A stretch of 6,113 nt of DNA from a bacterium (GTDB taxonomy: Bacteria > ARS69). The notes beneath the pieces were generated by a model, which saw only the letters and a program-made list of their open reading frames with translations, searched no databases and was not told the origin of the DNA. Below, piece by piece: positions 2-5,903 of the stretch; position 1 is the stretch's first letter; the number at the start of each line of letters is the position of its first letter. The stretch is from assembly GCA_025774865.1 (NCBI GenBank), contig JALGZO010000547.1, forward strand, positions 1-6,113, read 5' to 3'. Made by a program: the position numbers and the translations under genes.

Positions 2-832
2 GAGCACGCCCCGGGCCATCGGAACGCGGCCGAGGCTCTCCGCGTGGCGCACCACGTTCTCCTCTCGCACGGTCTGGCGGTGGCGGCGATCCGGGATCGC
101 GTGCCGCAGTCCCAAGTGGGAATCGTCCTGAATCTCACGCCCGCCATGCCGGTCGACGCGGAGGCAGACGACGACGCCGTGCGCCGGTTCGACGGCCTGT
201 TCAACCGCTGGTATCTCGACCCCGTGTTTCGGGGGCGCTACCCAGAGGACGCGGTCGCAGAGCGGGTTCGGTGCGGCCACCTGGAGAGCACGGATCTGCC
301 GTTTGCGCGGGTCGGGGACCTCGAGACCATCGCGGCGCCGCTGGACTTTCTCGGCGTCAACTATTACGGGCGCGTGGTGGTGCGGGGCGGCGGAAACGGA
401 TGGCCGGAGGCGGTGCCCGTCGCGCCGAAGGAGAAGCTCACGGACATGGGATGGGAGGTCTACCCCCAGGGATTGCACGACCTCCTCGGCCGCATCCACC
501 GCGATTATTCTCCGGCGGCCATCTACATCACGGAGAACGGCGCCGCATACGCCGACGGTCCCGACGCCGCCGGCCGGATTGCTGACGAGCGGAGGATCGA
601 ATTCCACCGCGCCCACCTGCTGGCCGCGCACCGGGCGCTGACCGACGGAGTACCGGTCCGCGGCTATTTCGCGTGGTCGTTCTTGGACAACTTCGAGTGG
701 GCGCACGGATACTCGAAGCGGTTCGGCTTGTACTGGGTGGACTACGTCACCCAGCAGCGTCTCCCGAAGGATAGTGCGCGGTGGTACCGGGATGTCGTCA
801 CTACGGGCGCGGTCGAGGAGACCGCGCCGTGA
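2..832 (+). CDS. GH1 family beta-glucosidase, C-terminal part (5' end cut by window edge)
   Basis: Retaining beta-glycosidase of family GH1, which typically hydrolyses beta-glucosides, cellobiose or related oligosaccharides in the cytoplasm. The frame is open from base 2, so the true start lies outside the window; the in-frame GTG at 44 falls inside a conserved block (EHAPGHRN...AHHVLLSHG) and is not a start. About 276 residues of a usual ~450 are present. Fragment numbering: LDFLGVNYYGR at 114-124 is the conserved Asn-Tyr block; IYITENGAAY contains the nucleophile Glu178 (codon 533-535); AWSFLDNFEWAHGYSKRFGL at 224-243 carries the sugar-binding Trp225, Glu232 and Trp233. The acid/base motif (NEP) would lie upstream and cannot be checked. 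No signal peptide can be judged. It ends 20 bases before the next gene on the same strand, probably in one operon. Family assignment is firm; the exact substrate (glucoside, galactoside, fucoside) is not determined. Confidence 0.95.
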   Translation, partial: EHAPGHRNAAEALRVAHHVLLSHGLAVAAIRDRVPQSQVGIVLNLTPAMPVDAEADDDAVRRFDGLFNRWYLDPVFRGRYPEDAVAERVRCGHLESTDLPFARVGDLETIAAPLDFLGVNYYGRVVVRGGGNGWPEAVPVAPKEKLTDMGWEVYPQGLHDLLGRIHRDYSPAAIYITENGAAYADGPDAAGRIADERRIEFHRAHLLAAHRALTDGVPVRGYFAWSFLDNFEWAHGYSKRFGLYWVDYVTQQRLPKDSARWYRDVVTTGAVEETAP

Positions 833-841
833 CCCGAACCC

Positions 842-852
842 AGGAGGGTTTC
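842..852 (+). promoter_or_regulatory. Ribosome binding site that favours the GTG start at 853
   Basis: AGGAGG at 842-847 is a full Shine-Dalgarno match, followed by five bases and the GTG at 853. This decides the chosen start of the large glycosidase/barrel gene. A competing signal exists: GAGGAG at 815-820, inside the GH1 gene, lies eight bases before another in-frame GTG at 829 that overlaps the GH1 stop codon (GTGA, 829-832). The second option would add eight residues to the N-terminus and give translational coupling. Both leave the signal peptide intact. Confidence 0.65.
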
Positions 853-3800
853 GTGATCGCGGTCTTCCGACAGGCGCTGTTGCGTACGGCGGGGGCCGCG
901 ACCGCGGCGGTCTTCGTTCTGTTCTCGAGCTTGGCAGCCTCCGGCGCACAGACCGCTCGCGTGGTCTCGGACGAGACCGGGCGCCGCCTTCAGGTCGACG
1001 GCCGCGATTTCTTAGTCTTCGGCATGAACTGGGGCCACATGCCGATCGGTCAGAACTACACGTACAACCTGTGGGATCAGCCGGACGACGTCATCGAAGC
1101 GGTGCTCGCGCGCGAGATGTCGCTGCTCCGCGGCATGGGTGTGAACACGATCCGTCAGTACGTGGGGATCCCCGCGCGCTGGATTCAGTACATCCACGAG
1201 CGTTACGGAATTTACACCGTGCTGAACCATCCGCTGGCGCGCTATGGCTACACGCTGGACGGCGTCTGGATTCCGTCGGTCGATTACTCGGATCCGCGTC
1301 TGCGGGAGGCCTTGAGAGCCGAGTTCCTCCGCACGGTGGAGGAGTTCCGCGACACACCCGGACTCCTCATGTGGCTGCTCGGCAACGAGAACAACTATGG
1401 CCTGTCCTGGAAATCGGCCGAGGTCGAGGCCTTGCCGGAAGGCGAGCGGCAGGCGGCCCGCGCGCGTTACCTGTACTCGCTATTCGGAGAGGTGATCGAC
1501 GCCATCAAGAAGGCGGACCCGGACCACCCGGTCGCGATCGCCAACGGGGACGTGCAATACATCGACATCATCGCCCAGGAGTGCGAGGGGCTGGACATCT
1601 TCGGCTCGAACGTCTATCGCGGCATCTCGGCGCGCGATCTTTTCCAGGTCGTCGAGGACAAGTTGGGCGTTCCCACGATGTTCACCGAGTTCGGGGCGGA
1701 CGCGTGGAACGCCCGGGAGATGCGCGAGGACCAGGAGGCGCAGTGCCGGTACCTGGTCGGCCAGTGGCAGGAGATCTACGAGCAGTCGGCCGGGAAGGGA
1801 CGGGTCGGCAACGCGATCGGCGGGATCATCTTCCAGTGGAGCGACGGCTGGTGGAAGTTCGGGCAGGAGGACCGGCTCGACGTCCACGATACGAACGCAT
1901 CGTGGCCGAACGCGGATTATCCGGAGGACTACGTCCCGGGCGAGAACAACATGAACGAGGAGTGGTGGGGAATCTGCGCGAAGGGGACGCCGGACGACCG
2001 CTTCCTCTACGACCTCTATCCCCGCGCCGCGTACTACGCGCTGCGGCAGGCGTTTCTCCTCGATCCGTATGCGCCCGACACCGATCTGGACGCGATCCGC
2101 GCGCACTTCGGCACGATTCAGCCGACGGCGTTCTCCCTCGACGCCCGCGGGAATCGCGCGCAGCTCGCCACCGACGAGCTGACGCGGGGGCGCCTGAGCG
2201 GCCTGCGTCTCGAGTTCGAGACCTACAGCACCGGCGGCGAGCTCATCAGTACGCCGGACAAGGGTTCGCCGGCTGCGAGGCTGCCCGCCTTTCTCGGTTT
2301 CGATCAAATGCAGTCGTTTTATGCGGACTTCGAGTCGCGCCCCGCCGGGAACCTGATGGGCCGGCTGTCGCTCAACTTCCTGTCGCGAGTCCCGCTGAAC
2401 CCGATCGACGAGATCTTCTACGAGAATCGCGCGAGGGGGGTCGACCTCAACGGAAACCTGGTTGACCTGGAGAGGCTGAAGGTCTACCAGGCCGAGCTCC
2501 GTTGGGAGGATCTCCGCTTCGTGCTCGACGGGTTCTACCGCACCGGGCACTACCACTGGGGATACGAAGGGGACTTCTTCGGCCTCTATCGCGAAGCGAA
2601 TTACGGCGAGAACATCGACATCTACCGGGGTGAGGCGCCGTCCGGTTTCGAGCTGGCCGCGAGGAAAGAACTGGAGGGGCTGAAGATCGCGTTCGGGCCG
2701 GAGCTCTGGTGGGGCGCGAACCCGGCGATCATGGCGAAGTACCGGCGCCAGTTCGGACGCTTCGATGCGACCGCGGTCATCCAGGAAGACATCGCCGCGG
2801 CGGCGGAGGACCTCTTCGTAACGGGGGGCACCTCGGCCGCGCAGCCCGTGCCGGAGACTCGCAAGGCGACCATCCACGTGAAGACCACCGTCGGTCCGTT
2901 CGGTGTGGAGGCAGGCGGTATCTGGGCCGGCGAAGACAAGATCGGGGAGCCGTTCCAGATCGTCGAGGGAACGAGTGGGAACTACACCGTCCTTCGGGAC
3001 GAAGTCGTCGAGTCGGATGCCTTCGGATACAAGGGAAAGATGACCTGGGAGCAAGGGCGGTGGCATTGGTACGCCCAGTTCGCGCAGCTGGGAATCGTGG
3101 CCGAGGGGTACCCGGACCCGACGATCACCTACACCGGATGGACGCTCAAGGACAGCGGCTCCGGCAATCAAACGCATTTCCTGACCGGGCTGGCGATGAA
3201 CGTCGGGGACTTCCAGATCTCCCCGAACTTTCTCTGGCAAAAACCCATGGTCGCGCCGATCCCGATCGACGCTCCGCCCCCGGCCCGCCCGCGCAACGTC
3301 TCGGTCGGGGGCGATCCGTTCTTCGTCCGCGGTAACCGGGAGACGACGGGCTACGAGCTGATGCTCACTTACGACCCGACGCCGGCGACCTGGATGTGGG
3401 TGTGGGACGCGATCGTGCGCGAGGACGCGCCGTTCGCGGCGAGCCTGGGTTTCGTCTACCGCGTTCAGCCGACGACCGTGGACGCGTTCAGCAGCTTTCT
3501 TGCCGACGGCACCACCCGCTTCGTCTTCCCGAGCGGAACCCCCGCGCGCGATCTCTACGAGGTGAACGCACGCATCATCTCGAAGCTGGGTCACCACGTC
3601 CGCATCGTGGCGGGCCTGTACGGGGGGAACGGCGAGCCGAACGGGAGCGACCCGCGGGAGATCTACCGGGCGGGCGGCGATCTCCGGATCGCCTGGCGCC
3701 AGGTGGCGCTCGAGACCTACGCGAAGTTCGATGACTGGGGACCTTACGACTACCACCGGGACTTCAACTTGACTTTTCCCGAGCAGCTCATGGGAGATCT

Positions 3801-4011
3801 GTCGTACACGTTCGGCCGGCCGCTGTGGTTCGGGTATCCCCAGACGAAGCTGGGAGCGCGAATGACCTGGCGCTCCCTCGACCAATATTCCCCGCGCTAC
3901 TGCCCCGCGGAGGTGCCGGACCCGAGCGGAAATCTGGAGTGCGATCCCCTCGCGCCGGGACCGAACGGCAACGAGTGGGAGTTCCGCACGTATGTCCACT
4001 TCGCGATGTAG
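853..4011 (+). CDS. Secreted GH-A/GH2-like TIM-barrel glycosidase fused to a putative outer-membrane beta-barrel
   Basis: A 1052-residue exported protein in two parts. Residues 1-32 form a signal peptide: a short n-region with Arg6 and Arg11, a hydrophobic core at about 14-30, and cleavage near ASGA/Q. Residues ~38-405 form a (beta/alpha)8 glycosidase of the GH2 C-terminal type. WLLGNEN holds the likely acid/base Glu179, FTEFGAD holds the likely nucleophile Glu279, and IIFQWSDGWW (325-334) is the strand-8 Trp block; YPRAAYYAL (389-397) closes the domain as in GH2 enzymes. The usual GH2 beta-sandwich domains are absent. After a linker (~406-475), residues ~476-1052 show repeated amphipathic strands rich in Tyr/Trp/Phe, such as 501-513, 542-551, 554-563, 610-620 and 672-691. 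The last strand, EFRTYVHFAM, alternates hydrophobics like an outer-membrane assembly signal. It follows the GH1 gene by 20 bases and converges on the transporter operon. The catalytic assignment is good; substrate unknown; the barrel is inferred from pattern, not homology. Confidence 0.85.
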   Translation: MIAVFRQALLRTAGAATAAVFVLFSSLAASGAQTARVVSDETGRRLQVDGRDFLVFGMNWGHMPIGQNYTYNLWDQPDDVIEAVLAREMSLLRGMGVNTIRQYVGIPARWIQYIHERYGIYTVLNHPLARYGYTLDGVWIPSVDYSDPRLREALRAEFLRTVEEFRDTPGLLMWLLGNENNYGLSWKSAEVEALPEGERQAARARYLYSLFGEVIDAIKKADPDHPVAIANGDVQYIDIIAQECEGLDIFGSNVYRGISARDLFQVVEDKLGVPTMFTEFGADAWNAREMREDQEAQCRYLVGQWQEIYEQSAGKGRVGNAIGGIIFQWSDGWWKFGQEDRLDVHDTNASWPNADYPEDYVPGENNMNEEWWGICAKGTPDDRFLYDLYPRAAYYALRQAFLLDPYAPDTDLDAIRAHFGTIQPTAFSLDARGNRAQLATDELTRGRLSGLRLEFETYSTGGELISTPDKGSPAARLPAFLGFDQMQSFYADFESRPAGNLMGRLSLNFLSRVPLNPIDEIFYENRARGVDLNGNLVDLERLKVYQAELRWEDLRFVLDGFYRTGHYHWGYEGDFFGLYREANYGENIDIYRGEAPSGFELAARKELEGLKIAFGPELWWGANPAIMAKYRRQFGRFDATAVIQEDIAAAAEDLFVTGGTSAAQPVPETRKATIHVKTTVGPFGVEAGGIWAGEDKIGEPFQIVEGTSGNYTVLRDEVVESDAFGYKGKMTWEQGRWHWYAQFAQLGIVAEGYPDPTITYTGWTLKDSGSGNQTHFLTGLAMNVGDFQISPNFLWQKPMVAPIPIDAPPPARPRNVSVGGDPFFVRGNRETTGYELMLTYDPTPATWMWVWDAIVREDAPFAASLGFVYRVQPTTVDAFSSFLADGTTRFVFPSGTPARDLYEVNARIISKLGHHVRIVAGLYGGNGEPNGSDPREIYRAGGDLRIAWRQVALETYAKFDDWGPYDYHRDFNLTFPEQLMGDLSYTFGRPLWFGYPQTKLGARMTWRSLDQYSPRYCPAEVPDPSGNLECDPLAPGPNGNEWEFRTYVHFAM

Positions 4012-4021: not shown

Positions 4022-4978
4022 TCACTCGGCCAGATGGCAGGCGGCGGAGTGCCCCGAGGCCAGCGGGAGTAGCGCGGGCTCTTCCTCGCGGCACTGGGGC
4101 ACGGCGCGATCGCAGCGGGGATGGAAGCGGCATCCGCTCGGCGGACTTTCGAGGCTCGGAGGGGAGCCCGGAATGCTCTGCGGCGAGCTCTCCCCATGGA
4201 GCGACGGGAAGGCGCGAAGAAGACCCTGCGTGTAGGGGTGCTTGGGAGCGCGGCGGATCTCGTCGGCCGGTCCCATTTCGACGAGCCGCGCGGCATAGAA
4301 CACCGCGACCCGGTCGGACACCTGGAGCATTCGCGCGAGATCGTGCGTGATGAACAGCACCGCGAAACCCAGTTCGCGCTGCAGTTGTCGGATCTGGTCC
4401 AGAATGTCACGCTCCACGATGACGTCGAGCGCCGTCGTGGGCTCGTCCAGGATCACCAGCGACGGTTTCAGGGCCAGGGCCAGAGCGATTCCCGTGCGTT
4501 GGCGCATGCCGCCCGAAAGCTGGTGCGCGTAGCTGTCGAGACGGTCCGCCGGGATCCCCACCATATCGAGCAGTTCGGCGGCGCGCCTCCGCGCCGCGCG
4601 CGTGTCCATCGCATCGTGCGCGACGAGCGTGTCGACGATCTGCTCGCCGACGGGGATCACCGGGTTCAAGGCGTCCATCGCGCTCTGGAATACCATCGAG
4701 ATCCGGCGCCAGCGGAGCGTACGCAGTTCCTCTTCGCCGAGCCGAAGCACGTCGCAGCCCTCGAAACGGATCTCCCCGCGCGAGATGACGGCGGGTGGCG
4801 GCAAGATCCGGAGAAGCGCCTGCGCCAGCGTGCTCTTTCCGCATCCTGACTCCCCGGCGACTCCGAGAATCTCGCCCGGGGCGACATCCAGGGTGACGCG
4901 GTCGACCGCGCGCACGGGCCCCTGGTCCGTGATGTAGTCGACGCAGAGGTCCCGGATGGAGAGAAGGGGATCAGACAT
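4022..4978 (-). CDS. Opp/Dpp-family ABC transporter ATP-binding protein (DppD/OppD-like)
   Basis: A 318-residue nucleotide-binding subunit that powers inner-membrane import by the adjacent permeases. Walker A is GESGCGKST (42-50), the Q-loop Gln98 sits in VFQSAMDALNP, the signature is LSGGM (154-158), Walker B is LVILDE (174-179) with catalytic Glu179, and the switch His212 is in ITHD. The C-terminal oligopeptide-transporter extension begins near HPYT (247-250) and has four cysteines, 283, 289, 296 and 314. In some DppD/OppD proteins this pattern binds a 4Fe-4S cluster. Its ATG lies within the end of the upstream permease gene (8-base overlap) and no clear Shine-Dalgarno is visible, so translational coupling is likely. 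All motifs are intact. Length fits the family. The partner ATPase (DppF/OppF type) usually encoded next does not follow: the convergent glycosidase gene begins 10 bases away. The Q-loop wording suggests the oligosaccharide branch rather than a strict peptide transporter, which is inference. Confidence 0.95.
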   Translation of the reverse strand: MSDPLLSIRDLCVDYITDQGPVRAVDRVTLDVAPGEILGVAGESGCGKSTLAQALLRILPPPAVISRGEIRFEGCDVLRLGEEELRTLRWRRISMVFQSAMDALNPVIPVGEQIVDTLVAHDAMDTRAARRRAAELLDMVGIPADRLDSYAHQLSGGMRQRTGIALALALKPSLVILDEPTTALDVIVERDILDQIRQLQRELGFAVLFITHDLARMLQVSDRVAVFYAARLVEMGPADEIRRAPKHPYTQGLLRAFPSLHGESSPQSIPGSPPSLESPPSGCRFHPRCDRAVPQCREEEPALLPLASGHSAACHLAE

Positions 4979-5903
4979 GGTCGGTGACGACGGGCGTGGA
5001 AGGCGTCGCTACCTGGCCGTGCTTGGCGAGGTACGCGCGCCAGGCCCGCTCCATCCGCAGCCGGGGGTTCGTGATCTCGTCGAACGAGGAGTTCAGCATC
5101 GTCAGCCCGAATCCGACGAGGGCGACGCAGAGCCCCGTGGGGACGAACGTCCACCACGCGCCCGTGAGAAGGGCAGCGTCGTTCTGCGCCCAGTAGAGAA
5201 TGGTACCCCAGGTGATGACGGAGACGTCGCCGAGGCCGAGGAACTCCAACCCGACCTGCGCGCCAATCGCGTATACCGTGCTTCCGATCACCTGCGAGAC
5301 GAGCAGCGAGGTCATCGTGGGCAGGATCTCCCGCGTCACGATGCGGAAGCTCGATTCGCCCGCGACGACGGCGGCCGAAACGAAATCCCGCTTGCGTTGC
5401 GCGAGTGTCTGCGCCCGCAGGACACGCGCATTCCACGCCCAACCCGTGACGATGAGGACGAGCGCCACCGTGTAGGGGCCGGTCGGAAGGTACGCCGCGA
5501 TGACGATCGCGAGCGGAAGGCCGGGAATCACGAGGAACACGTTGAAGAGAAGGGAGAGGACGCCGTCGACCCGGCCCCCGAAGAACCCGGCGGTGACCCC
5601 GACGATCGCGCCGATCAAGACGACCGCCAGCCCCACACTGAAGCCGAGCGCGAGGGACACCCGCGTTCCGGTCACGAGCTGCGCGAGAACGTCCTGGCCC
5701 TGGCCGGTCGTGCCGAGCCAGTGCCCGACGGACGGCGGCTGGAGAGGAATGGCGACGAGATCGTGAGGATCGCCGACGAACAGCGGACCGAAGCACGCGA
5801 CGAGCAGGAACCCACCCAGCAGCCCGGCCCCCAGGCTCGCGCGGCGATCTTGCCGGATCGCGCGCCACCACACGGAAATGCCCGTCGAAGGCTGGCCGTT
5901 CAC
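4971..5903 (-). CDS. Opp/Dpp-family ABC transporter permease (DppC/OppC-like)
   Basis: A 310-residue inner-membrane permease that pairs with the DppB-like subunit to form the translocation path. Hydrophobic segments lie at about 23-43, 84-106, 114-139, 144-158, 198-224 and 250-270, the six expected for DppC. HWLGTTGQGQDVLAQLVTGT (61-80) is the family block before the second segment; the cytoplasmic EAA loop that docks the ATPase is AAVVAGESSFRIVTREILP (177-195); GLEFLGLG (218-225) and NPRLR (279-283) are also characteristic. The start is GTG at 5903-5901, which overlaps the TGA of the upstream permease by four bases (GTGA), with no obvious ribosome binding site, as expected for a coupled operon gene. 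The hydrophilic tail after NPRLR, about 27 residues to the C-terminus, overlaps the ATPase gene. TTGQGQDV replaces the common TDxLGRDV of peptide permeases, hinting at the sugar-transport branch. Confidence 0.95.
   Translation of the reverse strand: MNGQPSTGISVWWRAIRQDRRASLGAGLLGGFLLVACFGPLFVGDPHDLVAIPLQPPSVGHWLGTTGQGQDVLAQLVTGTRVSLALGFSVGLAVVLIGAIVGVTAGFFGGRVDGVLSLLFNVFLVIPGLPLAIVIAAYLPTGPYTVALVLIVTGWAWNARVLRAQTLAQRKRDFVSAAVVAGESSFRIVTREILPTMTSLLVSQVIGSTVYAIGAQVGLEFLGLGDVSVITWGTILYWAQNDAALLTGAWWTFVPTGLCVALVGFGLTMLNSSFDEITNPRLRMERAWRAYLAKHGQVATPSTPVVTDHV

Follow-up and report, generated by a model that had tools for sequence, protein, structure and literature searches.

A widespread fusion of a GH158-like glycosidase to a predicted outer-membrane barrel, possibly an enzyme-pore for beta-1,3-glucan uptake

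The window analyzed here is a stretch of 6,113 nucleotides, the whole of one contig from a 4.7 Mb draft genome with an estimated contamination of 8.3%. It encodes a polypeptide in which a clan GH-A glycosidase, structurally nearest to the GH158 and GH157 endo-beta-1,3-glucanases, is joined to a predicted transmembrane beta-barrel of about 24–26 strands. We incline, with modest confidence, to the view that this protein is an enzyme-pore for the uptake of beta-1,3-glucan with an endo-glucanase placed at its periplasmic mouth, the transport, the activity and the location of the enzyme being inferred.

The fusion gene and its genomic context

An earlier note on this DNA had proposed that a signal peptide, a GH-A glycosidase and a barrel share a single frame, and this frame is indeed intact (Table 1). 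Only 20 bases separate the stop codon of the preceding GH1 gene from the GTG of the fusion. A GH149 fragment was located elsewhere in the same genome (G000:C739:3219-4268), on a different contig from the fusion, and the window's contig also cuts the GH1 gene, which indicates that the locus has been split by the assembly. This fragmented genome yielded no GH16. Given the estimated contamination of the draft genome, the identity of the host is uncertain, a point on which the fusion gene itself does not depend. A chimeric assembly as the source of the fusion could be ruled out by the existence of at least 581 relatives, the best 80 of them full length.

Table 1. Features of the window, with positions counted from its first letter
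Feature	Position	Strand	Remarks
GH1 beta-glucosidase	2..832	+	5' end lost at contig edge; likely co-transcribed with the fusion
Shine-Dalgarno AGGAGG	842..847	+	five bases 5' of the GTG, direct read
GH-A glycosidase/outer-membrane barrel fusion	853..4011	+	1052 aa, uninterrupted frame, GTG start
Sec signal peptide	853..948	+	residues 1-32, cleavage placed by eye after ...FVLFSSLAASGA and before QT
GH-A TIM-barrel domain	949..2178	+	residues 33-442, nearest GH158/GH157
N178 and acid/base E179 codons	1384..1389	+	motif LGNENNYGL; invariant 80/80; equivalent to BuGH158 N136/E137
Nucleophile E279 codon	1687..1689	+	motif TEFG; invariant 80/80; equivalent to BuGH158 E220
Transmembrane beta-barrel (predicted)	2188..4008	+	residues 446-1052, about 24-26 strands
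OppD-type ABC ATPase, probable oligosaccharide importer	4022..4978	-	
OppC-type ABC permease	4971..5903	-	

The glycosidase half

The first half meets the criteria of clan GH-A, i.e., a (beta/alpha)8 fold, an Asn-Glu pair containing the acid/base and a Glu as nucleophile. The two glutamates (179 and 279) that the earlier note had singled out as catalytic, and N178, are invariant in the alignment of the best 80 of the at least 581 relatives, and the glutamates fall on E137 and E220 of BuGH158 in a phmmer alignment. In that enzyme N136, E137, and E220 are essential, and E137 and E220 are the proven catalytic residues (PMC7157763). A sequence search of solved structures gave GH158 at the top (9oro with E about 1e-6, and 6pal with E 3e-7 when a profile was used), with GH2 enzymes scoring close behind. 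Foldseek on the enzyme domain also put GH158 first, and VIA-align 2 put GH157 first (Z 28.3), followed closely by GH158 and GH2 enzymes. Among the structural relatives of one member of the fusion family there is also a GH72 glucanosyltransferase. The identity to GH158 is only about 22%, and the C-terminal Ig-like domain of the BuGH158 type is absent, since in the model helices connect the TIM barrel to the membrane barrel. The CAZy family of the enzyme is not settled.

The barrel half

The second half has no sequence match in Pfam, NCBIfam, or PDB, and its nature is deduced from structural models. Two AlphaFold2 runs with 80 sequences, one for the full-length protein (pLDDT 85, pTM 0.77) and one for the barrel only (pLDDT 83.9, pTM 0.81), agree on a beta-barrel of about 26 strands. 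The alternation is weak in strands 12 and 13, which may form a hairpin, and 24 strands would then remain. With the barrel-only model, Foldseek returned strong matches to TonB-dependent receptors and MOMP, and VIA returned AlgE at the top (Z 16.4) together with Occ porins, chitoporin, and the 24-strand usher FimD, which matches the model from end to end (residues 1–615). Every strong structural match in both searches is an outer-membrane barrel. The in/out hydrophobic alternation of the strands reaches 3.35 against 2.06 ± 0.21 for shuffled strands, and 0/1000 shuffles were as high. Within the limits of prediction, the criteria of an outer-membrane barrel are met, namely a signal peptide, an even number of amphipathic antiparallel strands and a C-terminal strand, with long outer loops and short periplasmic turns; closure of the barrel is inferred. 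The identification as an outer-membrane barrel made in the earlier note is therefore upheld by models, structural matches, and hydrophobic alternation, and the minimum of 14 strands that it had named as support is well exceeded. Two of its details had to be corrected, as the start of the barrel lies near residue 446 instead of 476, and the barrel is larger than the 16–18-strand porins to which it had been likened. The folds that would have refuted it, a soluble beta-sandwich, a propeller or a carbohydrate-binding module, did not appear and were rejected for want of structural or Pfam support.

The outer loops are rich in aromatic residues and strongly conserved. The longest one, between barrel strands 5 and 6 (residues about 566–594), belongs to the best conserved regions of the barrel and carries the motif HxHW..EGDFFG; loops of outer-membrane proteins are normally variable, so that a conserved loop is unusual.

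Distribution and conservation

The relatives span more than ten phyla, and the 80 aligned come from Gemmatimonadota, Eisenbacteria, Krumholzibacteriota, Zixibacteria, KSB1, Calditrichota, Ignavibacteria, Delongbacteria, Rhodothermota, Myxococcota, and Bacteroidota. Both halves are kept in all of them, so that conservation of the fused form across genomes, which the earlier note had named as support, is fulfilled, and 79 align with the window protein at 53–67% identity. Even samples of genomes were also surveyed with a barrel profile, which detected the protein in 34 of 395 Bacteroidota genomes, plus one weak match, and in 36 of 298 Gemmatimonadota genomes. Almost all of these frames have the length of the fusion, the exceptions being the weak match and some shorter frames that contig ends have probably truncated, and no clear stand-alone barrel was found among the 395 and 298 genomes. 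In the ten genomes checked, each half gave one strong match, namely the fusion, which is thus present as a single copy. A weak barrel match at G133:C314:3450-3623 (E 1.9e-5, profile positions 1–59), in a 536-codon frame with an internal TAA, could be a fusion that has decayed or a relative with the GH alone.

In the tree, Bacteroidota and Ignavibacteriota each form one group and Gemmatimonadota are scattered over several places. The pairwise identities of the two halves correlate only moderately (Pearson 0.61, Spearman 0.36), for which reason this correlation was set aside as a proof of co-inheritance. Cultured carriers include Flavobacterium paronense and the human gut bacterium Bacteroides finegoldii (WP_022275059.1), where the NCBI label of the protein is 'glycoside hydrolase family 2 TIM barrel-domain containing protein' and where the fusion has behind it a protein weakly matching Big_2, a GH16, a fimbrillin-like protein and bglX. 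A related locus with bglX at its end may also be present in Bacteroides thetaiotaomicron. The B. finegoldii record NZ_OY725931.1, labeled 'plasmid 29', bears rpsA and a valine-tRNA ligase and is probably a mislabeled piece of chromosome.

Topology and the side of the enzyme

The 25 loops of the barrel alternate between long and short along the chain, with a mean of 19.8 residues for loops after odd strands versus 5.0 for turns after even strands (p = 2.8e-4), and dropping the weak hairpin 12–13 leaves this parity unchanged. As a rule, outer-membrane barrels have their long loops outside and their short turns in the periplasm; the predicted start of strand 1, the end of the enzyme domain and both barrel termini would therefore be periplasmic. 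Of the two placements contemplated in the earlier note, strand parity thus favors an enzyme at the periplasmic mouth, a location that is inferred, and display at the surface is less favored yet possible. The pTM of the full-length model suggests that enzyme and barrel are set firmly against each other, since by our own estimate roughly 0.5–0.6 would be expected with the enzyme placed randomly relative to the barrel; this docking is also inferred.

Display would mean that the barrel passes its own N-terminal enzyme to the surface, with a helix left in the lumen, and serves as an anchor and not as a nutrient channel. The order of passenger and then barrel, and the signal peptide, are those of type Va autotransporters, BuGH158 is predicted to be active at the cell surface (PMC7157763), and the full-length model predicts a helix some 19 residues long immediately before strand 1, owing to which an autotransporter-like path is not excluded. 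However, at about 24–26 strands the barrel is about twice the size of the 12-strand autotransporter type and gives no autotransporter Pfam match, the conserved aromatic outer loops fit a pathway for sugars, and the loci yielded no further outer-membrane transporter, as far as the sampled flanks and the plug genes among the matches listed can tell. We regard display as unlikely.

Gene neighborhood and probable substrate

Eighty loci were surveyed, with short flanks cut by contig ends and the 25 commonest families considered. The recurrent neighbors are catabolic and importing: GH16 (52/80), CBM-type lipoproteins (39/80), MFS_2 (31/80), GH149 and GH3 (27/80 each), ROK (23/80), GH1 directly upstream of the fusion (22/80), and Opp-type ABC genes (7–11 of 80). 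The order of the window, GH1 and fusion on one strand facing OppD and OppC on the other, recurs in four loci (L016, L017, L049, and L056), and the same placement of OppD also in L007 and L012. The GH149 phosphorylase is securely identified (6hq6, E=0), the GH16 matches beta-1,3-glucanases, the GH3 matches glucan exohydrolases, and the ABC solute-binding protein is nearest to a chitin-oligosaccharide binder. A crude scan with uncertain starts detected lipoboxes in 14/42 GH16 and 13/37 CBM proteins and in none of the GH1. Within the short flanks and commonest families of the 80 loci no SusC/SusD was found beside the fusion, and in ten genomes no TonB plug gene appeared within about 9 kb of it among the matches listed.

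Proteins of about 300–540 aa, one with a match to the FlgD_ig C-terminal domain (PF13860), occur upstream of GH1 in 23/80 loci (L005, L008, L016, L044, and others), mostly on the opposite strand, and might bind glucan as secreted or surface proteins. In five Bacteroidota loci (L076, L080, L081, L053, and L066) the fusion adjoins a Y_Y_Y-domain regulator of about 950 aa, and the B. finegoldii locus (L149) has a DUF6377 protein; both are likely glucan sensors.

The GH149 and the laminarinase-type GH16, and also the GH3, make beta-1,3-glucan (laminarin) the likely substrate, an inference in which linkage specificity could differ at an identity of about 22% to GH158. The same catabolic enzyme-pore could instead act on a different beta-glucan, with mixed linkages or beta-1,6 branches, or carry out glycosyl transfer, considering that its structural relatives cover GH2, GH157, and GH158, that one member matches the GH72 glucanosyltransferase and that BuGH158 is broadly active on beta-glucan (PMC7553746). 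The GH149 and GH16 neighbors point against it, and we hold this version to be quite improbable. Export and trimming of the cell's own glucan, in which the pore would secrete a polysaccharide edited by the enzyme, in the way that hydrolases edit the secreted polysaccharide of exopolysaccharide systems, has in its favor only the match to the alginate exporter AlgE and is in our view very unlikely, as there is no glycosyltransferase or synthase among the recurrent neighbors.

A proposed enzyme-pore and its closest known relatives

The most economical reading, and the one we favor, is an uptake pore free of SusCD and provided with its own endo-glucanase, in which substrate, pore function, side of the enzyme, and coupling are all inferred. 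Lipoprotein GH16 and CBM-type lipoproteins would bind and cut a laminarin-like glucan outside the cell, and the fragments would enter the wide barrel, lined by its conserved aromatic-rich outer loops. At the periplasmic mouth the fused GH158-like domain would cut the emerging chains again, and it may also plug an otherwise plugless pore. An MFS_2 symporter or an Opp-type ABC importer would then carry the oligosaccharides to the cytoplasm, where GH3, GH1, and GH149 would process them; for these last steps the genes are present and the flow between them is inferred. The fusion would replace SusC/SusD in these loci. On the other hand, a plugless pore of 24–26 strands without TonB energy would be unusual. 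A bolder proposal, tentative and in our opinion somewhat unlikely, is a new class of importer with the enzyme as gate, in which an endo-glucanase occupies the place of the TonB plug, passage and cutting are coupled without TonB, and SusC/SusD are replaced for beta-1,3-glucan across many phyla.

SusC/SusD systems likewise combine a large barrel in the outer membrane with lipoprotein partners in a locus for glycan use, but the fusion has no Plug or TonB receptor match in Pfam and carries a catalytic domain in the N-terminal place, and SusD was not found in the flanks sampled. BuGH158, from the Bacteroides 1,3GUL (PMC7157763), shares the GH-A fold, the N-E and E catalytic residues and the GH16/GH3 partners, whereas it is a separate protein with an Ig-like domain and works beside SusC/SusD. 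The predicted barrel superposes partly on sugar porins such as maltoporin and chitoporin (Z 13.6–14.1), which also have conserved outer-loop aromatics, although it is larger, has no sequence match to them and bears an enzyme. The nearest precedent found is the MFS-GH17 fusion of Formosa, where a laminarin locus likewise encodes a laminarin-active enzyme joined to a transporter, in that case an inner-membrane MFS and a GH17; its authors stated that no such transporter-CAZyme fusion was described for other bacteria (PMC6246565). A survey covering 76 families of outer-membrane pores describes fusions with additional domains as rare, and the words enzyme, hydrolase and catalytic are absent from its accessible portion (PMC4827864). 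No description of an outer-membrane pore-glycosidase fusion was found in the literature, from which subscription papers and preprints were outside our scope, so that one cannot be ruled out.

Implications

Laminarin-type beta-1,3-glucan, an algal and fungal sugar, ranks with the largest flows of carbon on Earth, and SusC/SusD are usually regarded as responsible for its uptake. Searches for PULs based on SusC/SusD, of which there is an example in PMC7553746, would miss the loci of the fusion, which is poorly annotated. As it is widespread, occurs only once in each of the genomes checked, and is present in a culturable Flavobacterium and a human gut Bacteroides, it makes a direct test of the coupling between cutting and import feasible. 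If the inferred coupling is true, the fusion may represent a new way to link the cutting of glucan with its import.
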